Virus record (IMG/VR): IMGVR_UViG_3300020020_000098
Span: 1 to 38,836 of that record
Direction: 5' to 3' (one strand)
DNA from: a virus
Length of the DNA: 38,836 bases
In this document: positions 27,377 through 38,836 of the stretch, piece after piece
Layout of the letters: each line of letters begins with the position of its first letter
Position numbering within the stretch: the first letter of the stretch is position 1
Position numbers and translations under genes: made by a program
The notes under the pieces: model-generated
The model's database searches: none
Seen by the model: only the letters and a program-made list of their open reading frames with translations
What the model was told of the DNA's origin: nothing

Positions 27377-28294
27377 TCACACGATGAAACCGAGCGCGGC
27401 GATCTCTCGCTCGAGCGCGAGCTCGGAGGCAGCACGCCCGACGCGCGCCGGCGCCGGGCTGGAGGACGGCACGGCGACACGCGCGAGCGTCGCCTCAAGG
27501 GTCTCGACGCGGTCGACGAGCCCGGCGGCGAGCGCCTCGACGGCGGTCAGGGTGTTGCCCTCGCCAAAGCCGCCGCGGACGGCGTCGGCCGTAACGCCCC
27601 GCCCGAGCGCGACATCGGCCACGAAGCGCTCGTACGGCTCGGAGACGAGCGCCTTCAAGCGGGCGCGCGCCGTGTCGGAGAGCGGCTCGGTGGGGTTGCC
27701 GTCGACCTTGAACGTGCCGGCCGAAATGTAGGTGAGGACGATGCCCTCGTTCTTGAGGTACTGGCTCAGGTCCTCGTGGAGGCAGTAGACGCCGATCGAG
27801 CCGACCAGCGCTGACGGCGCGGCGACGATCTCGGTCGAGCGCGCCCCGGCCCAGTACGCCGCCGAGCACATTTGGAAATTGGCGACGGAGATCACGCGCT
27901 TGACGGCCGCGGCCTGGCCGACGCGCGCCGCGAACTCGCCGGCGCCGGCGACGGATCCACCCGGGGAATCCCAGTCGAGGACGATGGTCGCGACGGCCGG
28001 ATCGGCGACGAGCGCCGCGAGCTCGGCGCTCGCCTCTTCGAACGTGGCCCCGCCCGAGAAGTCGCTCAGCATGTTGATCCGGGGCGCGAGCACGCCGTGA
28101 ATCGGGAGCACGGCGACGGCGCCAGGCACGCGGGGCGCCGGCGGCGGTGGCGGCGGGCCGAACGCCTCGCGCTCCACCCGCTCGGCACCGGTGACGTGGC
28201 GCGCCAGTACGCGCCCGACCACGCGCAGCATGTCGCGCGTGAGCGCCCACGGATGATCGACCGCCCACGCCGCCACCCGAGATCCGGTCCGCAT
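27377..28294 (-). CDS. S49 (SppA-type) prohead protease
   Basis: A 305-residue serine protease of the S49 family. It cleaves capsid delta domains and scaffold inside the prohead. DWDSPGGSVAGAGEF (about 107-120) is the substrate-groove block. S144 in MCSAAYW is the expected nucleophile and K196 in SAGTFKVDGNP the general base; the 52-residue gap matches the Ser/Lys dyad of bacterial SppA. PSALVGSIGVYCLHEDLSQYL is the usual GSIGV motif. It starts with ATG overlapping the portal TAA (TAATG) and lies just before the capsid gene. Confidence 0.9.
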   Translation of the reverse strand: MRTGSRVAAWAVDHPWALTRDMLRVVGRVLARHVTGAERVEREAFGPPPPPPAPRVPGAVAVLPIHGVLAPRINMLSDFSGGATFEEASAELAALVADPAVATIVLDWDSPGGSVAGAGEFAARVGQAAAVKRVISVANFQMCSAAYWAGARSTEIVAAPSALVGSIGVYCLHEDLSQYLKNEGIVLTYISAGTFKVDGNPTEPLSDTARARLKALVSEPYERFVADVALGRGVTADAVRGGFGEGNTLTAVEALAAGLVDRVETLEATLARVAVPSSSPAPARVGRAASELALEREIAALGFIV

Positions 28295-29205
28295 TACGCT
28301 GCCTCCGTCTCGTCGAGCGCGAGCTCGCCGTCGATATACTTTTCGATCGCTTCGACACGCGCCTCGATCTGTAGCGGCGCCCCGCGTCGATCGGGCAGCG
28401 AGGACGCGCCGACCGGAGCCCCGTCCGGCACCATCGGCGGCGGCGCCGACGGGCCGGCCGCCGTATTGAGCGGCAGCGCGAGCGCGTCGGCGGAATCGTC
28501 ATCCGTGATCCGCGGGAGATTGAGCCGGGCCCGTCCCTCGTTCGCCGTCATGATTGGGCGCCCGACGAGCGTGTAGAGCGACGCCGCCTGCTCTTCGAAC
28601 GAGCCTTTGAGCTTTTCCTGGATGTTGAATTCGAGGTAAACGCGATCGAGGTCGCTCGCCTCGGACAGGAGTTGCCGCTCGAGTTCCTCGCTGATCATCT
28701 GCAGCCAGGGCCCGAGACAGTCCTGATAGAGCTGCTTATGCTGTTCCTTGATGTTGCTGAAGGTCGCGTGATCGAGAATCCCGACCATCGGCAGCGGCAC
28801 GTGATAGGCGCGCGCGACTTCCTCGTCGGTGAGCTTGCGTGCGGCGACGAACTCGGACTCGCGCGGCGAGAACGCACGCGCAGCGAAGGTCATGCCCTCG
28901 TCGAGAATCAGCGTCGAGACGGCGTTGTTGCCGGTGTGTCGCGCCTCGAGCTGCTCGCGGAAGGTCTGCTTGTCGTTGTCCTTCCACTTGCCGGCGGCGA
29001 TCGGGCGCGTGATCACCCCGTCGATTCGGCTGGCGTTCTTCCAGTAGTTCTGGCGATAGGAGGTCTCGCGGCGTCTTCGAGCAGGAGCGCGCGGAGCGTC
29101 TCGAGCGGCGAGAGCCCCATGAGCGGATTGCAGGGGTCGTAACCGTTGAAATAGACCACCGATTCGCGCGCCAGTGGGATGGTGCGGCCGTCCGGGAGGG
29201 TCCAA
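28294..29205 (-). CDS. Portal protein, C-terminal part (frame split)
   Basis: This frame carries the C-terminal two thirds of an HK97-type portal protein. ETSYRQNYWKNASRIDGVI, QLEARHTGNNAVSTLILDEGM, ARAYHVPLPMVGILDHATFSNIKEQHKQLYQDCLGPWL and RARLNLPRITDDDSADALALP are standard portal segments. The true portal sequence begins at about 29070. Everything upstream (29071-29205) is out-of-frame shadow. It must be joined to the N-terminal part by a -1 shift. Either a 1-base deletion in this copy or in the assembly, or a genuine shift, would explain it. Portals are essential, so a sequencing or assembly error is the simplest reading. Confidence 0.85.
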   Translation of the reverse strand: MDPPGRPHHPTGARIGGLFQRLRPLQSAHGALAARDAPRAPARRRRETSYRQNYWKNASRIDGVITRPIAAGKWKDNDKQTFREQLEARHTGNNAVSTLILDEGMTFAARAFSPRESEFVAARKLTDEEVARAYHVPLPMVGILDHATFSNIKEQHKQLYQDCLGPWLQMISEELERQLLSEASDLDRVYLEFNIQEKLKGSFEEQAASLYTLVGRPIMTANEGRARLNLPRITDDDSADALALPLNTAAGPSAPPPMVPDGAPVGASSLPDRRGAPLQIEARVEAIEKYIDGELALDETEAA

Positions 29206-29651
29206 GTGAAGCCCGACGGCACGAGCCAGCCCTGAACGGTCATCTCTTCGGGCGGCAGGCGCACGAGCCCGATCGAGTCATCCTCGCGGCGCACCTTGAG
29301 CCAGTACGCGTTGAAGTAGATTCCCATGTCCTGCATCAGGGACTGGAAGAGCCGATAGCGTGTCGTGCCGGGGTTCGGCCGATCGAGCCAGTGCAGGACC
29401 GGGTGACCGGCCAGGCGCTCGCGGTCGAGATCGGAGACGCGCCGGAACGCCTGCAGAGGGATCTGCGCGATATTGCGGGCGAGAAAGTCCACGACGGTCC
29501 GGACGTTCGGCTGCGTGCGATAGATCGCCGCATACGTCGCCGCGCTCATCGTGTCGAACACGGAGCGTGAGCTCGTGACCAGCGCGACGCCGCCGGCGGC
29601 CGGGCTTTTCGTCGTGAACGACTGCAGCGCGCCGAAACTCTTGACGATCAC
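29013..29651 (-). CDS. Portal protein, N-terminal part (frame split)
   Basis: This frame carries the first ~195 residues of the portal: SAATYAAIYRTQPNVRTVVDFLARNIAQIPLQAFRRV, HPVLHWLDRPNPGTTRYRLFQSLMQDMGIYFNAYWLKVRR and NPLMGLSPLETLRALLLEDAA. Homology-like reading ends there, at about 29070, where the next expected residues (E-T-S-Y-R-Q-N-Y-W) are in the -1 frame. The GTG at 29651 overlaps the upstream stop by GTGA and fits the operon pattern. The window between about 29066 and 29072 (gccgcgagacc on the coding strand) should gain one base to restore the frame. The longer ATG at 29750 adds shadow sequence. Confidence 0.85.
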   Translation of the reverse strand: MIVKSFGALQSFTTKSPAAGGVALVTSSRSVFDTMSAATYAAIYRTQPNVRTVVDFLARNIAQIPLQAFRRVSDLDRERLAGHPVLHWLDRPNPGTTRYRLFQSLMQDMGIYFNAYWLKVRREDDSIGLVRLPPEEMTVQGWLVPSGFTWTLPDGRTIPLARESVVYFNGYDPCNPLMGLSPLETLRALLLEDAARPPIARTTGRTPAESTG

Positions 29652-29878
29652 GGCGCCGCCTCCACTTGAGCGAAGGCGAAGTCGGCGACCGGGATCACGA
29701 CATCGCCGTCCATGGGGACCGGCGCCTCGCCTGGCTTCAGAAGCGAGCATCGCTTGAGCACGAGCCAGGCACCGCGCCGCTCAAAGATCACGGCGTCGAA
29801 GGCGTTGTCAGGCGCGCTCTTCGTCGTGATCAGGCAGCGGCGATGCAGGAACGGGGGGCGCCAGAAGGCCAGACGCAC
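29648..29878 (-). CDS. Small hypothetical protein between RHH and portal genes
   Basis: A 76-residue beta-rich protein (LHRRCLITTKSAPDNAFDAVIFERRGAWLVLKRCSLLKPGEAPVPMDGDVVIPVADFAFAQV). The GTG at 29878 is uncertain because no ribosome-binding site is visible. In-frame upstream reading continues as a plausible but low-quality extension. Its stop overlaps the portal GTG (GTGA). Probably a small head-region or assembly protein. No family is recognised. Confidence 0.45.
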   Translation of the reverse strand: MRLAFWRPPFLHRRCLITTKSAPDNAFDAVIFERRGAWLVLKRCSLLKPGEAPVPMDGDVVIPVADFAFAQVEAAP

Positions 29879-32557: not shown

Positions 32558-33013
32558 ATGCCGACTCTGACGATCGCGCCCGGGCTTTTCGCGTGGACAC
32601 TCGAGCTCGAGGACGGCACGACGCGCACCGTGCTGGCCTCCTCGCTCGAATCGGCGATCAACGGCATCCTGCCGTCACCGGTCGTCGTCGCGACGCGCGG
32701 TGAAGCGATCGGCGACGGCTCATCACCCGCGCTCGTGCCGCCCGTGCTCGCCTCGCTCGTGCCGCCGTCGGCGAAGCTCGGCGATCCGAGCTTCACGCTG
32801 CACGTGCACGGGACCGGCTTCCGGCCGGACTCCGTGATCGTCTGGAACGGCAGCCCGGAGCCGACGACCTACGTGTCGGCGACGGAACTCACGACTTCCG
32901 TGAATATGGCCACGGCGGAAGTCGCTCTCCCGATCCCCGTCCTCGCCCGGACCATCGGCGGCCAGGACTCGAACGTCCTCACGTTCGATCTACAGCCGGC
33001 GGCGGGCGCGTGA
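32558..33013 (+). CDS. IPT/TIG (immunoglobulin-like) domain protein
   Basis: A 151-residue protein. The first ~45 residues form a beta-rich start (LTIAPGLFAWTLELEDGTTRTVLASSLESAI). Residues 65-145 are an IPT/TIG domain: SLVPPSAKLGDPSFTLHVHGTGFRPDSVIVWNGSPEPTTYVSATELTTSVNMATAEVALPIPV, with the HG-TGF-x-x-x-SV-x-W-NG-x-x-x-x-T-x-(Y/F)-V-S-x-TELT pattern. Such domains on phages usually mediate weak carbohydrate binding, often as capsid decoration. It is the only plus-strand gene in this half, with GGAGG about 10 bases before the ATG, and it is convergent with the P63C gene. Confidence 0.75.
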   Translation: MPTLTIAPGLFAWTLELEDGTTRTVLASSLESAINGILPSPVVVATRGEAIGDGSSPALVPPVLASLVPPSAKLGDPSFTLHVHGTGFRPDSVIVWNGSPEPTTYVSATELTTSVNMATAEVALPIPVLARTIGGQDSNVLTFDLQPAAGA

Positions 33014-33020
33014 GGCGTCG

Positions 33021-34061
33021 TCAGGCTCGCGCTGGATCGGCGAGTGGAAGCTCTAAGGTACTCCCGCGTTTCGGGAGCACTTGATCGACCGTCTTGACGA
33101 AGCGGTGCCATCCGTGGCCGCTGGCGAGCGCCAGTCGCTGAAACATGATCAACGTGTGCAGGTGCTGCGCAAGCATCGGCTCGCCGATGTCATCGGTCAG
33201 GTACTGGTGCAGCTTGTGGGGCCGTTGCCCGTGTTCGTTTCGAGGGCTCTTTTCCTCGAGCGTTTTGAGCAAGTTGGGAGCGAGGCGCTCGTACACGAGG
33301 TCGCGAGTGTAATGGGCGACCACGCTGTACCGGTTCTTGCCCATCCCGGGCCAGATCCATCCCTTGAGTTTGTAGACGTTCTCGTAAAATTCGTCCGGGA
33401 ACTTCTTCACCCACGCCGCCAACTCCTTCCGAACGATCAACTGCAGGTACTGTTCGAGCGCATCCTGGGGCCGCACGCCCTGGTAGCCCGTCGCTTCGTC
33501 AACGAGAGCGATGATGCCGACGCGGGCAAAGGCGCGAGTCAGGATTTGGCACTGCGCGGCGAAGTGCGCCTGACTCGGCATGAGCAGTGTGCGTCTGTCG
33601 GCCTCGATCACGGCGTCGCAGATGTCGGGAAGGATCGTCGCTTCGTAGCCGTAGGCGGGCTTAACGAATCCTGCTGGCTGGAAGATGATGGGCGTCCTAA
33701 TGCGCACGGCTAAGTCACCGATATCCACGCCTTTAGCTTGCAGAGACTCCACGAATCGGGCCATGCGGTGCGCACCGCCTGTGCCCCCGCTGGTCGACAT
33801 GCCGATGCCGGCCTGCAAGCCGCGCTGAACCAGCACACGGCGCCCGTCATCAAGGACGTAGCACGGGATCTCGGCATCGCCGATCCGGAGCGGGCGATCC
33901 GAGTCTCCAAACGCCGACTTGGGCACCTCTCGGGCCGGAGCCTTTGCCCACCGCGATTCGGCGGCGGCCTTCGCAATCGACCGGCGCTCGTCCGCGGTCA
34001 GCTTGTCTCGTCGTGCACGGCCGCCGGAGGCGGCCACCTCGGTCATCCGCTTGTTGGCCAT
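33021..34061 (-). CDS. P63C domain-containing protein
   Basis: A 346-residue protein with a P63C domain, a family of phage/plasmid-associated proteins of unknown function. Hallmarks: LVDEATGYQ (about 180-190), DALEQYLQLIVRKELAAWVKKFPDEFYENVYKLKGWIWPGMGKNRYSVVAHYTRDLVYERLAPNLLKTLEEKSP and, at the end, LHTLIMFQRLALASGHGWHRFVKTVDQVLPKRG. The basic N-terminus (MANKRMTEVAASGGRARRDKLTADERRSIAKAAAESRW) may contact DNA. ATG at 34061 has AGAAAGGA close by and lies downstream of a promoter with an inverted repeat. GC content looks lower than in the flanks, suggesting separate origin. P63C genes often accompany morons; its activity is unknown. Confidence 0.8.
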   Translation of the reverse strand: MANKRMTEVAASGGRARRDKLTADERRSIAKAAAESRWAKAPAREVPKSAFGDSDRPLRIGDAEIPCYVLDDGRRVLVQRGLQAGIGMSTSGGTGGAHRMARFVESLQAKGVDIGDLAVRIRTPIIFQPAGFVKPAYGYEATILPDICDAVIEADRRTLLMPSQAHFAAQCQILTRAFARVGIIALVDEATGYQGVRPQDALEQYLQLIVRKELAAWVKKFPDEFYENVYKLKGWIWPGMGKNRYSVVAHYTRDLVYERLAPNLLKTLEEKSPRNEHGQRPHKLHQYLTDDIGEPMLAQHLHTLIMFQRLALASGHGWHRFVKTVDQVLPKRGSTLELPLADPARA

Positions 34062-34073
34062 AGTTCCTTTCTG

Positions 34074-34120
34074 CTTGCTAGCAGGCAAGAGTGTACGGCA
34101 CGACCATGCCTGCTAGCAAG
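34074..34120 (-). promoter_or_regulatory. Promoter of the P63C gene with flanking operator arms
   Basis: A -35 TTGCTA (34114-34119) and -10 TACACT (34090-34095) on the minus strand, 18 bases apart. A 14-base inverted repeat (cttgctagcaggca at 34074-34087 and its mirror at 34107-34120) covers the -35 and the start-point region, with 19 bases between arms. Each arm contains the 8-base palindrome TGCTAGCA. This is a typical repressor-operator layout and suggests tight control, perhaps by the P63C protein itself or by a host factor. Confidence 0.7.
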
Positions 34121-34237
34121 TAAGGAACACGCGGGACGGCCTGTCAATTCGATGCGCGTCGATGCGCGCGCCAGGGCTGCGGGGCTTCTACCGCCGACGG
34201 CCGAAGCGCCAGACGCATAGGGCGCGCCCCGAGCCGG

Positions 34238-34495
34238 TTAGGAGCCCTCGCTCTTCGGCGGACCGCTGCCCGGGAACAAGTGCCAGTACACCCGCGCCAA
34301 ATTACCTCCCAGCAGGACCTCGATCGTACCGAGCAGCCACGTAGGAGCCGTGTTGTGGAAGTAGAACGCGGCGAGCAGGAAGGCGAAGAGGACGATCGCG
34401 AAGAGGCCGAGCGCGAACCAGAGAGCTACCCACGCCATCCGGAGGCGAGCGGTGACTTCGGCGACTCTAAGCTGTCGCTCGGTCGGTATCGCCAC
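34238..34495 (-). CDS. Cassette gene 3: small two-span membrane protein
   Basis: An 85-residue protein with two membrane helices (about residues 17-45, WVALWFALGLFAIVLFAFLLAAFYF, and 52-68, LLGTIEVLLGGNLARVY), a short charged N-terminus and a C-terminal GSGPPKSEGS tail. The GTG start (34495) lies inside the end of the upstream gene, and no clear ribosome-binding site is visible. It ends a three-gene overlapping cassette (34238-35673). Small two-TM proteins as last genes of accessory cassettes are common effectors of phage defence or membrane stress systems, but this family was not recognised. Confidence 0.6.
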   Translation of the reverse strand: MAIPTERQLRVAEVTARLRMAWVALWFALGLFAIVLFAFLLAAFYFHNTAPTWLLGTIEVLLGGNLARVYWHLFPGSGPPKSEGS

Positions 34496-34859
34496 GGTCG
34501 GTGTCGATTAGCCTGTAGAACGTCAGTCGGCGAAGGTCGGTCTTGTTGAAGTGCTGCTCTTCAAGATCGCCGTCGCGCTCGACCCAACAACTGACTGTGG
34601 GTGGGAGCTGCGCTTCCGTATCGGCCGTTTTCGCAACGCTCCCGTCCGGACACAGCAGCTCGATGCCGCGCCTGAACAACCCTTGACGGACGGCTGTCTC
34701 GCAAATCTGCTGGGCGGCTCCCGCCGACACGTCCAGCAGGCTACGCACGTTCTCGGCGTAGAACTTGTCCGGGTTCAATCGCGTGAGCTCGTCTTCCCTT
34801 CCCGACAAGGGATCGCCGAGATGCTCACTGATTGTTCGTAAGAATTTCTCGAATAACAA
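34467..34859 (-). CDS. Cassette gene 2: small helical, winged-helix-like protein
   Basis: A 130-residue protein with no named family. GREDELTRLNPDKFYAENVRSLLDVSAGAAQQICETAVRQGLFRRGIELLCPDGSVAKTADTEAQLPPTVSCWVERDGDLEEQHFNKTDLRRLTFYRLI has the pattern of a winged helix (helix, turn, helix RSLLDVSAGAAQQICETAVRQG, then a beta-wing) plus a C-terminal beta/alpha piece. The start is a TTG (34859) with AGGGG 9 bases upstream, overlapping gene 1 by 35 bases. The overlap with gene 3 is 29 bases. Such overlap means strict co-expression. It may be an adaptor between a sensor and the membrane protein. Confidence 0.55.
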   Translation of the reverse strand: MLFEKFLRTISEHLGDPLSGREDELTRLNPDKFYAENVRSLLDVSAGAAQQICETAVRQGLFRRGIELLCPDGSVAKTADTEAQLPPTVSCWVERDGDLEEQHFNKTDLRRLTFYRLIDTDRGDTDRATA

Positions 34860-35673
34860 CGTCGGTATCCCCTGCGTTGTCAGCGTACCTTGGAAACGCG
34901 ATGTACCCCGTCGACGGGTCGACCGAGAACACTTCTACCGTCAGGGCTCGGGCGGAGTCGACCTTGAACATCGTGGCAAACATCACCGATTCGAGCAGCT
35001 GGGCGTAGAGCTCCGGGTTGTGCTCCTTGATGCCAAGCTCCTCGTCCATCGCCTCGGCCGCGGTCGACTTCGCCTTCTTGTACTTCGTCTTGGGCGCATC
35101 CATGAACCCATCGACCCAGAGTTTCTTTACGCCTCTGTGCAGGTCCGCGGGCGTGAGGCTGTAGCCAGAGGCGAGCCCGTTGACGATGTCCTTCTCGTCG
35201 CTGCCGCGGTTATTTAACAGATAGGGCCGGTCGAAGTACGCGCCCAAGTCCTTCTCGAGGACGACGAACCGCACGATCAAATGCGCGTCTGTCATCTCGA
35301 TTCGAATCGGCCACAAGAACTCCAGGGTGGCCTCCTCGAGGGGGTCCTTGAGCACCACCTTGTATTCCGAGCGCACGACGTACAACGCGTCCTCGCCAGC
35401 CGCGAGCACTTCGGCTGTTGCCTCCGCCAGCCTTGCCGGCAGGGCGAAGCCGCCAGCGGGACGATCGAAGACGTGGACGTGTTGGCGACAGCAGCTGAAG
35501 TGTTCGTTCACGAACGCAACGACCTGGTCGGGCTCCTTCGCCTCAGCAATCGCCTGACAGACCTCCTCTTTAGAGCCTTTGATCGCCGGCCACACGGCGC
35601 GCAACCGCGAAATCGGGAAAAGCTCGAGGAGGCGCTTGACGTTCTGGGTCGAGGCTTCAGCTACCGTCGGCAT
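34825..35673 (-). CDS. Cassette gene 1: 282-residue protein of unknown function
   Basis: A 282-residue soluble protein, first gene of the cassette. The N-terminal helices (NVKRLLELFPISRLRAVWPAIKGSKEEVCQAIAEAKEPDQVVAFVNEHFSCCRQHVHVF) include a C-C pair and H-x-H. The middle and end are beta/alpha (PIRIEMTDAHLIVRFVVLEKDLGAYF, NGLASGYSLTPADLHRGVKKLWVDGFMD, AEAMDEELGIKEHNPELYAQLLESVMFATMF), with a final alpha/beta part. No catalytic motif is obvious. The start ATG at 35673 has a weak ribosome-binding site. Codon composition looks less GC-rich than the early and late operons. Likely a sensor or regulator part of a cassette, but that is inference from context. Confidence 0.6.
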   Translation of the reverse strand: MPTVAEASTQNVKRLLELFPISRLRAVWPAIKGSKEEVCQAIAEAKEPDQVVAFVNEHFSCCRQHVHVFDRPAGGFALPARLAEATAEVLAAGEDALYVVRSEYKVVLKDPLEEATLEFLWPIRIEMTDAHLIVRFVVLEKDLGAYFDRPYLLNNRGSDEKDIVNGLASGYSLTPADLHRGVKKLWVDGFMDAPKTKYKKAKSTAAEAMDEELGIKEHNPELYAQLLESVMFATMFKVDSARALTVEVFSVDPSTGYIAFPRYADNAGDTDVVIREILTNNQ

Positions 35674-35914
35674 CTGCGGGCGGATTGTGGCACAGACTCA
35701 GCCGTCAGGCCATCGTCACGCCCGGCCTTGAGCCATTACCCCCCGGCGGAGCCACGCTTCACGCAGGGGTCGCGATCGCCCGCCGGGCCCGTGCTCGCCC
35801 TTCACGGCCGACCGCGCGCCTGTACGTGGCGACGACATAGCAGAGTCCCCGTAGTTTTACGGAGGCGGCACCGCTATTCGCCGATGGGGAGCCGGGGCTG
35901 GCGCCTGAAGCCCG

Positions 35915-36079
35915 TTACTTGAGGGCGGCGATCGCTTTCGCCATGCGCTCGATGAGAATCTGAAGCACTGGCCCGTCGTCGTCGGGGGCCCCTTCGATCT
36001 GGCTCGGGAGTCGATCCACGAAATCCTTCAGGTCTTGGCACAGCTGGCGTGCGGTCTGCCTGCTCTGGTTGTCGCTCAT
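35915..36079 (-). CDS. Small acidic helical protein near attP
   Basis: A 54-residue helical protein (QSRQTARQLCQDLKDFVDRLPSQIEGAPDDDGPVLQILIERMAKAIAALK). GAGG lies 8 bases before the ATG at 36079. It sits between attP and the three-gene cassette and is transcribed toward the cassette, with about 240 bases between them (nothing recognisable there). It may be a small regulator of integration or of the cassette, or an anti-factor. No family recognised. Confidence 0.5.
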   Translation of the reverse strand: MSDNQSRQTARQLCQDLKDFVDRLPSQIEGAPDDDGPVLQILIERMAKAIAALK

Positions 36080-36226: not shown

Positions 36227-36461
36227 TCGGATGCCTTCCGGATGCCTTCCTGTACGCAAAAACGACGAATCGTTAGCGAAAACTAACGAGAGCTAACGAG
36301 AGTAATCGTTGGAATTCCTAAGGGATTGCGAGGAAAGGTGGTCGGGGCGACTGGATTCGAACCAGCGACCTCTCGGTCCCGAACACCACCGGCCTCTCAC
36401 AGTTCACTGAGTAAATCGTTCATTCTCAGCCCTCGGATGCCAACAGGATGCCTTCCTGTAC
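36227..36461. other. Intact attP with paired arm-type repeats and tRNA core
   Basis: Two near-identical 29-base units (36227-36255 and 36433-36461, 25 of 29 positions equal) share the layout GGATGCC, 4 bases, GGATGCCTTCCTGTAC. Their direct repeats are 11 bases apart (one helical turn) in each unit. They flank the core at 36339-36383. A tandem 10-base repeat (CTAACGAGAG at 36283-36292 and 36293-36302) lies inside the left arm. Arm-type repeats on both sides of one core are what tyrosine integrases need at attP; in an integrated prophage they would be split between attL and attR. Confidence 0.75.
36339..36383 (-). other. 3' piece of a tRNA-Pro-like gene (attachment core)
   Basis: The minus strand reads from the anticodon loop (TTCGGGA) through the T arm (GGTTCGAATCC) and acceptor CGCCCCG-A to CCA. 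The loop suggests anticodon CGG, i.e. proline. The 5' half expected (CTCGG stem) is absent, so this is not a functional tRNA but the sequence a phage carries to rebuild the host tRNA 3' end upon integration. Type is given as other because it is a fragment. Confidence 0.8.
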
Positions 36462-36470
36462 CAACGCGCG

Positions 36471-37865
36471 TCATCCTCGCCAGAGCCCTCCAGCCGCCGC
36501 GTAGCGCCGGTCTTGCCGCGCGTGAAAGTAGCCTTGCGTGGTCTCAAGATCGCGATGCCGCGCCACCTCCTGTGTCAGCACAGGGTCACCGGTGTTCTCG
36601 GCCACGCGGCTGATGAACTCGTGCCGTGTCGTGTGCCACACCAGCCCCTGGGCTCGCCCCGGCACCAGCCCGGCAAGGGTGAACAGTTCGCGCCACAAGC
36701 GGTCGAAGCTCGCCTGATACCTCCCGTCCTCGCTGCCGAAGATGAACGTCCGCGAGAGCTTGTTGCCCTGCAGCTGAAACCGCCGCTGCTCGAGCATCTG
36801 CACGAACCGCGGCGTGCCAGCGAAGACGGTCTCGGGCTCGCCCGTCGACTTGCCGCCCTTCGTGATCTCGGGCGGTAGCGTTATGACGTACCCCTGCCCC
36901 GTCGTGCCGTTCGGGCGCGTGAACGGCACGGGGCGCCAGGTGACGTGGTGCAGCTGCAGCTTCAGCATCTCGCCGGCCCGCAGGCCGCCGTCGAGGGCGC
37001 CGATCAGCCGGCGGCGCATCTCGTGCCCCTTGGTGCCGGGCTTGAGCCGCTCCGGATCCCAGATCTGGAAGTTCTTGATCGCCGAGACCACCGACGGCGA
37101 GATCTGGAACTCCGCCGCGACCGCCTTGCCCGTCTGCCCCCGCTCGAGGGCGGCGCGGATAGCGTCGGCCTGCTCCTGCGTCAGCTTCTTCCGATTGGGA
37201 AAGTGCTGCGGCCGGTTCAACTGGTCGACCACGTCGAAGAGCCGATCCTCGACGTCCTCGACCAGGTGGCGCTGCTTGAAGTGCTCGGGCTTCGCGGCGA
37301 CCTTGCGGTCAATCGACGCCATGGGGTTGACCGTCAACCGCTTCCACCGGACCGCCCGTTTGAGCACCCGCCCCAGGATCTCGTGGTAGTTGTTCCAGGT
37401 CGAGTTCTTCCACTTGCGCGCCTTGGCGGTGATGTTCAGCCACCGCTCGATCTCCTCGGCGGCATCGGCGAGCTGCTTCAGGCTCAGCCCTCCGAGGCGG
37501 CTCGTCGCCAGGACGTTGAGCATGGGGCCCATCGAGTTCGCGGAGAGGCCGCGCTCCGCGGCGTAGTGCGTCTGCCACTCGGCGATGAAGCCGGCCAACG
37601 TCTGCGCGGTCCCTGGCGCCGGGCGCTCGCCCGCGCGGTCGAATGTGCCGCCGTCGATGGCCACCTTGAACCGCGCCAGGACAGCCTCGGCCTTCTCCGT
37701 CGAGTGCGGATCGACTTCCTGGCCCGCCCACTTGCTCAGGACCACTCGCCGCCCCTGATACTTCCCGATCCATTGACAGGCGCACCGCGTGAGGCGCCGT
37801 CCGGGTCGGCCGCACTTGTGGTGCTTCAGGAGCCCCTTCGTGCCACTCGAGGCGCGCCGGGGCAT
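36471..37865 (-). CDS. Tyrosine integrase with inserted HTH-like segment
   Basis: A 464-residue tyrosine recombinase that integrates and, with a directionality factor, excises the phage at the tRNA core. Catalytic set: R296 (GLRAGEM), K336/K339 (TKGGKS), H411-x-x-R414 (WHTTRHEF), H437 (VARHRDLETT) and nucleophile Y446 (QGYFHAR). The N-terminus has C18, C28 and C30 in a basic arm-binding part. Residues 224-266 (KLTQEQADAIRAALERGQTGKAVAAEFQISPSVVSAIKN) form an HTH-like insertion between the core-binding and catalytic domains, not usual in this family. ATG at 37865. attP lies directly after its stop codon. Confidence 0.92.
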   Translation of the reverse strand: MPRRASSGTKGLLKHHKCGRPGRRLTRCACQWIGKYQGRRVVLSKWAGQEVDPHSTEKAEAVLARFKVAIDGGTFDRAGERPAPGTAQTLAGFIAEWQTHYAAERGLSANSMGPMLNVLATSRLGGLSLKQLADAAEEIERWLNITAKARKWKNSTWNNYHEILGRVLKRAVRWKRLTVNPMASIDRKVAAKPEHFKQRHLVEDVEDRLFDVVDQLNRPQHFPNRKKLTQEQADAIRAALERGQTGKAVAAEFQISPSVVSAIKNFQIWDPERLKPGTKGHEMRRRLIGALDGGLRAGEMLKLQLHHVTWRPVPFTRPNGTTGQGYVITLPPEITKGGKSTGEPETVFAGTPRFVQMLEQRRFQLQGNKLSRTFIFGSEDGRYQASFDRLWRELFTLAGLVPGRAQGLVWHTTRHEFISRVAENTGDPVLTQEVARHRDLETTQGYFHARQDRRYAAAGGLWRG

Positions 37866-38206
37866 TACTTCGCCCGCTCCCGCGCCGCGCTCACCGCGTC
37901 CGCGATCCGGAGCTTGATATACGCCTGGCGCGCGATGCCGATCCGCGACGCCTCAAGGTCGATCTCGCGCAGCAGGTCGACGGGAAAGTCGACATTGACG
38001 CGCTGGATCTCACGGCCTGGGCGACGGGTTTTGCTGTGGTCGATGTAGGGCTCCAGATCGCCCTCGGGATCATCGGGCGGCAGATCGGCGAGTCGATCAA
38101 ATTCTTCCGCACTAATCATGGGACGCCGACGTGCGCTCGCGTTGGTAGAGCGCTTTTTCGAACCGCCGCGCGCGGCGGACTGAGATGAGGCGGGTGCTGT
38201 CTTCAT
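37865..38206 (-). CDS. BrnA/CopG-like antitoxin
   Basis: A 113-residue antitoxin of the BrnA/CopG kind. MISAEEFDRLADLPPDDPEGDLEPYIDHSKTRRPGREIQRVNVDFPVDLLREIDLEASRIGIARQAYIKLRIAD holds a ribbon-helix-helix core (QRVNVDFPVDLLREIDLEA...RQAYIKLRIA). It should bind the partner BrnT toxin and the operator. The start is ambiguous: ATG at 38206 gives a basic leader and a 95-base overlap with BrnT, while ATG at 38119 gives a compact protein with an 8-base overlap. Order (toxin first, antitoxin second) matches BrnTA operons. Confidence 0.75.
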   Translation of the reverse strand: MKTAPASSQSAARGGSKKRSTNASARRRPMISAEEFDRLADLPPDDPEGDLEPYIDHSKTRRPGREIQRVNVDFPVDLLREIDLEASRIGIARQAYIKLRIADAVSAARERAK

Positions 38207-38399
38207 GGCGATACGTCACCGTGGCCGTCCAAACGGTTTGTCCGATCGAGGCGATGATCTGAAATCGCGGCTCCGTCGAGGAGCGCGCCGTGCGCTCCAC
38301 ACGATCGCGATCAGCCCACAGCGCCTGTGCCTCCACGAAGTCGATCCCGTGCTTCGCCCTGTTCGCGGCAGACTTGGCGGGGTCGAATTCGAAGCGCAT
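38112..38399 (-). CDS. BrnT-like toxin (ribonuclease)
   Basis: A 95-residue BrnT-family toxin, a RelE-fold-type ribonuclease that slows translation by cutting RNA. It begins FEFDPAKSAANRAKHGIDFVEAQALW, the family's signature (F-x-W/F-D-x-x-K-x-x-x-N-x-x-KHG-(I/V)-x-F-x-x-A), then STEPRFQIIASIGQTVWTATVTYRHEDSTRLISVRRARRFEKALYQRE, with the closing RLIS-x-R-x-A-x-x-x-E-x-x-x-Y. ATG at 38399 lies next to a palindromic operator. It probably stabilises the lysogen or blocks competing phages. Confidence 0.85.
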   Translation of the reverse strand: MRFEFDPAKSAANRAKHGIDFVEAQALWADRDRVERTARSSTEPRFQIIASIGQTVWTATVTYRHEDSTRLISVRRARRFEKALYQRERTSASHD

Positions 38400-38684: not shown

Positions 38685-38836
38685 CGCTCTCGCTCCTCTC
38701 GCTTACGGTGTCGCTTTTCGGGCCTGACGTCGGGCTGTGCGCCCCTATCCCGAACATTTGTTGAGCTCCTTTTCACTGCCCAAAACCCCGTTTCCGGAAA
38801 ACCCCCTGCTCTAATTCGCGCCCACACGAGGGAGCC
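38685..38836. other. Leader upstream of excisionase operon to window end
   Basis: No gene. The stretch 38750-38815 has AT-rich runs (gaacatttgttgagctccttttcac, ccaaaaccccgtttccggaaaacc) and TTTTC/GGAAAA arms that could hold the excisionase promoter on the minus strand. If the genome is circular, it continues into 1-65, which is also non-coding, before the end of the HNH gene at 66. I see no precise promoter or direct terminal repeat between the two window ends. Confidence 0.35.

Follow-up and report, generated by a model that had tools for sequence, protein, structure and literature searches.

The temperate phage studied here carries a sharply bounded accessory insert that holds an unrecognised operon of three overlapping genes, g1, g2 and g3. 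The insert (32987..35759) contains a P63C-domain gene, g3, g2 and g1, in this order of coordinates, and is missing from the sister phages L002, L003 and L004. In the searches made, three of its four genes matched nothing known. The insert probably serves lysogenic conversion and is transcribed from the prophage, and our main reading, to which we give a probability of roughly 0.4, is that g1–g2–g3 may be a lysogeny-expressed exclusion or abortive-infection operon with a small membrane effector.

The phage genome

The window, meaning the whole stretch of 38,836 nucleotides that was analysed, is the entire IMG/VR virus record IMGVR_UViG_3300020020_000098 of a soil bacterial virus. Profile searches identified integrase, terminase, portal, protease, major head protein, tail and replication/recombination modules, and a search of Rfam gave no match. 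Because the window ends adjoin each other in L003 (window position 38834 leads to L003 position 4301, and window position 1 to L003 position 4288), the window probably represents a nearly complete genome in circular permutation. The portal protein is split over two overlapping frames, 28294-29205 and 29013-29750. In L003 and L004 it occupies one frame of about 533 codons, and these sisters have some 217 bp more near 29653. A mutation or an assembly error accounts for the split frame.

The tyrosine integrase gene (36471..37865, minus strand) matched Pfam Phage_integrase (5.5e-9) and phrog_1 (3.2e-24). The attP core (about 36335-36385, minus strand) is the 3' part of tRNA-Pro(CGG), TTCGGGACCGAGAGGTCGCTGGTTCGAATCCAGTCGCCCCGACCACC. 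It is identical in the more distant relative L005, where it adjoins an integrase 63% identical to that of the window, and two actinobacterial genomes match it with 2 mismatches. L003, a close sister, has a different integrase and then a different tRNA-like sequence (L003 7940-8020), so that phages as closely related as these have exchanged their integration module. Directly upstream of the integrase gene of the window, at 37865-38399, a BrnT-type ribonuclease toxin gene (Pfam BrnT, E 8.4e-21) overlaps a RHH/CopG-like gene, and the two are likely a toxin-antitoxin pair.

Three overlapping coding genes

The preliminary description listed three minus-strand genes of 282, 130 and 85 residues with overlaps of 35 and 29 bases, and both the coordinates and the overlaps were reproduced. 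The first gene of the operon, g1 (34825..35673), starts with ATG and encodes a soluble protein. The second, g2 (34467..34859), overlaps g1 by 35 bp, and its TTG start is preceded by an AGGGG ribosome-binding-like run inside g1. The third, g3 (34238..34495), starts with GTG, overlaps g2 by 29 bp and encodes the 85-residue membrane protein. Codon usage was scored with a model trained on ten other genes of the same phage and expressed as z against shuffled sequence. Each gene was the best of its six frames, with z values of 9.9 (g1), 4.7 (g2) and 5.9 (g3). An open run of 282 codons was present in only 0.8% of the shuffles; the lengths of g2 and g3 alone were not unusual. All three genes are coding.

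The placement of the three genes alone between attP and the P63C gene was nearly right, the same interval also including an ORF of 54 aa (35915-36079) whose codon statistics are good. A simple scan limited to sigma-70-like promoters and terminators found neither.

An insert absent from three sister phages

L002, L003 and L004 have 85-95% DNA identity to the window over most of the shared regions (blastn). The alignments of all three stop at 32986, shortly before the gene at 32558-33013 ends, and restart at 35760. Between these positions the window has 2773 bp, L003 and L004 269 bp and L002 104 bp, the extra block thus being about 2.75 kb with four genes. Since the three sisters are without everything between the shared flanks, g1–g3 and the P63C gene are regarded as one accessory insert. 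Its true borders likely lie a few tens of bases inside the aligned limits, because L005 matches the window to about 33009. The gene at 32558-33013 encodes on the plus strand, in the direction opposite to its neighbour genes, a 151-aa protein that has no Pfam family, is 79% identical in the sisters and is also common to more distant relatives.

A lower GC content had been noted for the cassette, and the calculation agrees: the three-gene part has 61.2% GC against 68.2% in the window overall. The GC minimum of the genome lies here, and among windows of this size only 0.1% are as low. Two of the features by which a moron cassette is told were found: a defined site that is empty in close relatives (here three sisters) and deviating base composition.

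The insert has the integrase/attP module on one side and the terminase genes on the other. This stretch from integrase/attP to terminase is variable, as its contents differ in the window, L005 and L002: L005 has a HicB-like gene and then a small terminase gene in place of the insert, and in L002 the slot adjoining the conserved element that borders the insert holds a gene for a DUF2335 membrane protein (E 6.4e-15), with the end of another gene before it. The conserved element is intergenic (35760..35904), has 85-88% DNA identity in L002, L003 and L004 (blastn) and contains the hairpin CCGTAAAACTACGG; it may serve in packaging or as a site of control.

The proteins and the search for relatives

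No family had been recognised for any of the three proteins in the preliminary description, and the profile searches agreed with this. Against Pfam, NCBIfam and PADLOC, including the defence models of PADLOC-DB 2.0.0, there was no match to g1 and no credible match to g2 or g3. Residues 22-66 of g1 weakly matched phrog_3720 (E 0.007), a profile that matched no genome, controls included, and is uninformative. The AlphaFold model of g1 was unusable (pLDDT 36).

The product of g2 had been described as winged-helix-like. The AlphaFold model, which was built from a single sequence, has an H-H-E-E pattern, is of low confidence (pLDDT 55) and gave no significant Foldseek match; a winged helix in g2 is possible at the level of this model. 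The two membrane helices assigned to g3 were reduced to one by hydropathy and an approximate insertion-energy scale: residues 25-46 form one clear helix (-4.6), while the segment 49-67 scored +3.45 and may be amphipathic or re-entrant. On the same scale the three best helices of lambda RexB scored -1.6 to -2.6 and the two helices of a DUF2335 protein, used as a control, -1.0 and -1.8. The best Pfam match of g3, Cpta_toxin (E 0.032), was non-significant and far below the curated cut-off.

Relatives were sought widely. No credible relative was found in viral contig scans for g1, g2 and g3, in two further scans with artificially diversified pseudo-alignments, in a scan of genome contigs for g1, or by tblastn of phages and plasmids for all three. 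The whole-genome searches covered g1 and g2. There was no credible match to g1 in 397 genomes of one phylum, in 300 of one class within that phylum or in 151 genomes of another phylum, and none to g2 in 300 genomes, where the matches were noise of 13-19 bits, many of them running across stops. The matches to g2 in Ensifer plasmids were also rejected, as they were out of frame and inside a cytochrome oxidase gene. Most of the scans need short exact peptides, the genome samples are small and metagenome contigs lie outside them, so this absence is no proof of uniqueness.

The P63C gene, its leader and its relatives

The P63C gene (33021..34061, minus strand) is a full-length member of phrog_2384 (E 2.3e-94) and matched Pfam P63C (PF10546; E 1.2e-28) with 100 bits against a gathering cut-off of 26.1. 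It is also distantly similar to anti-repressor Ant families (phrog_2899, E 1.2e-7), and had no credible match among the PADLOC-DB 2.0.0 models. ATG 34061, preceded by AAGGA, is its likely start. The leader contains a perfect inverted repeat with 14-bp arms, CTTGCTAGCAGGCA-N19-TGCCTGCTAGCAAG (34074..34120), and the palindrome TGCTAGCA is present in each arm and at no other site in the window. The repeat is the probable operator of P63C.

In the phages ST104, Midgardsormr38 and SI8 a P63C relative directly follows a CI/LexA-type repressor gene, codirectionally, and in the IMG/VR phages L085 and L088 a Peptidase_S24 repressor gene in the same way. The position behind cI is the rexAB site of lambda. 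Petra, Barco, Lodos and DC1 have a P63C relative within the integrase/immunity region, and L087, by our own reading, after an integrase-like gene. SEN34 and Pkon1 are exceptions to this placement, and L082, L084 and L086 had no clear pattern. No relatives of g1–g3 were seen beside P63C in the other P63C loci, and the literature search gave no study of what P63C does. Barco excludes two unrelated phages in a published table (PMC6426606). No link to the P63C gene of Barco was drawn, because Guacamole excludes the same two phages and a search of Guacamole gave no P63C.

Interpretation of the insert

An accessory cassette of the lysogenic-conversion type, as proposed in the preliminary description, is what the empty site in three sisters, the lowest GC of the genome and the place of P63C beside repressor or integrase genes point to. 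For a defence or exclusion system the evidence is circumstantial, coming from position, gene layout and actinobacteriophage precedent, and the labels of sensor, adaptor and two-helix effector given to the three proteins went beyond it. Expression in lysogeny, joint action and a part in defence are what we infer for g1–g3 from the precedents of lambda RexAB and the Sbash and CarolAnn pairs. In such a system the soluble g1 would sense an incoming phage, and g2 would work with g1 as a DNA- or partner-binding regulator. Together with g2, g1 would trigger g3, and this small single-pass membrane protein would damage the membrane or block DNA entry. The overlaps would couple the translation of the three genes.

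The exclusion reading draws on several observations: the site is empty in L002, L003 and L004, the GC is the lowest of the genome and all three genes are coding. Furthermore, the slot lies beside the integrase gene and attP, a usual place in such viruses for genes that shield the host from other viruses, relatives of P63C stand behind CI/S24 repressors or in integrase/immunity regions, the neighbouring slot of L002 ends in a DUF2335 membrane protein, and the phages CarolAnn (gp44/gp43) and Sbash (gp30/gp31) offer a precedent. Against it speak the missing matches to PADLOC or other defence families, the promoter scan, and the one clear helix of g3 in comparison to the four-helix RexB, Sbash gp31 and CarolAnn gp43. 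Also, as no relative of g1–g3 was found, there is no conserved co-occurrence. Orphan status itself would be no argument against defence, since CarolAnn gp43 and gp44 defend and yet match no Pfam family. It is improbable that P63C, a widespread phage family, works with the unrelated orphan operon so that the full insert forms a single exclusion unit; if it did, P63C would be a family of prophage exclusion proteins that has gone unrecognised.

Accessory genes serve phages in many ways other than defence. The accessory insert and its membrane protein would equally suit lysogenic-conversion genes that serve host fitness or alter the envelope or receptors, rather than defend inside the cell; this is doubtful, as no enzyme, transport or envelope family was detected in g1–g3 and the three-way overlap suggests a tight complex. 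Somewhat less likely again is a regulatory insert, in which g1–g3 and P63C would tune a lysogeny or antirepressor switch and g2 and P63C would act on the palindromes at 34074-34120. The similarity of P63C to the Ant families, the inverted repeat in its leader with the only such sites of the window and the possible HTH in the low-confidence model of g2 argue for this, but a membrane protein is an odd partner for a switch and the sister phages manage without the insert.

That g3 is a membrane toxin and g1 and g2 its antitoxins, stabilising the prophage, seems clearly unlikely. The protein is small, single-pass and hydrophobic, its gene is the last of the operon, its best Pfam match is a toxin family and the phage has a second such pair in BrnT and the RHH protein; that match is nevertheless far too low, and a first gene of 282 residues is large for an antitoxin. 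The two long same-direction overlaps inside one uniformly low-GC insert make it very unlikely that three unrelated small genes were merely acquired together and have no joint function, even though the lack of relatives means that nothing shows the three to travel as a set.

Exclusion genes of prophages contribute much to phage resistance, and plating alone has brought most of them to light. The insert offers a clean natural pair of phages with and without it. The broader lead is P63C, a family of no established function that recurs at the rexAB position in several unrelated temperate phages; together with the operon it bears on whether new exclusion systems can be recognised by their position alone.

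Comparison with known exclusion systems

By the tests run, g1–g3 appear to fall outside the RexAB and CarolAnn families. Lambda RexA–RexB resembles the operon in having, within a prophage-expressed region, a soluble protein of similar size (RexA, 279 aa) beside a small membrane protein, but RexB is described as having four transmembrane helices and g3 has one clear helix. There was no match of g1 to Pfam RexA (PF15969) up to E = 1 and only E 0.65 to lambda RexA in BLASTP, and g3 neither matched Pfam RexB (PF15968) nor aligned to lambda RexB; as positive controls, lambda RexA and RexB matched their own Pfam families with 1e-97 and 8.5e-92. Also the DUF2335 protein of L002 is a small membrane protein in an adjacent accessory slot, with two clear transmembrane helices and no similarity to g3.

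Each of the pairs CarolAnn gp44/gp43 and Sbash gp30/gp31 consists of a soluble and a membrane protein that are expressed in lysogeny and have been shown to defend (PMC6426606, PMC6426596), and the soluble protein has been proposed to activate the membrane protein upon infection (PMC6426596, PMC6426606). In BLASTP the alignments of g1 to CarolAnn gp44 (E 0.66) and of g3 to CarolAnn gp43 (E 0.11) were not significant and covered short segments only. The operon further differs from both pairs in having three genes instead of two and a membrane protein with one clear helix, where the membrane partners of the pairs are described as having four. The likeness to CarolAnn and Sbash lies in the setting and the layout: temperate actinobacteriophages, a variable region beside integration or immunity genes, and a gene for a soluble protein followed by one for a membrane protein. 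The genes overlap in CarolAnn by 26 bp and here by 35 and 29 bases. Like the operon, these pairs had almost no relatives when described, only one other CarolAnn-related pair being present among more than 2,800 actinobacteriophages (PMC6426606).
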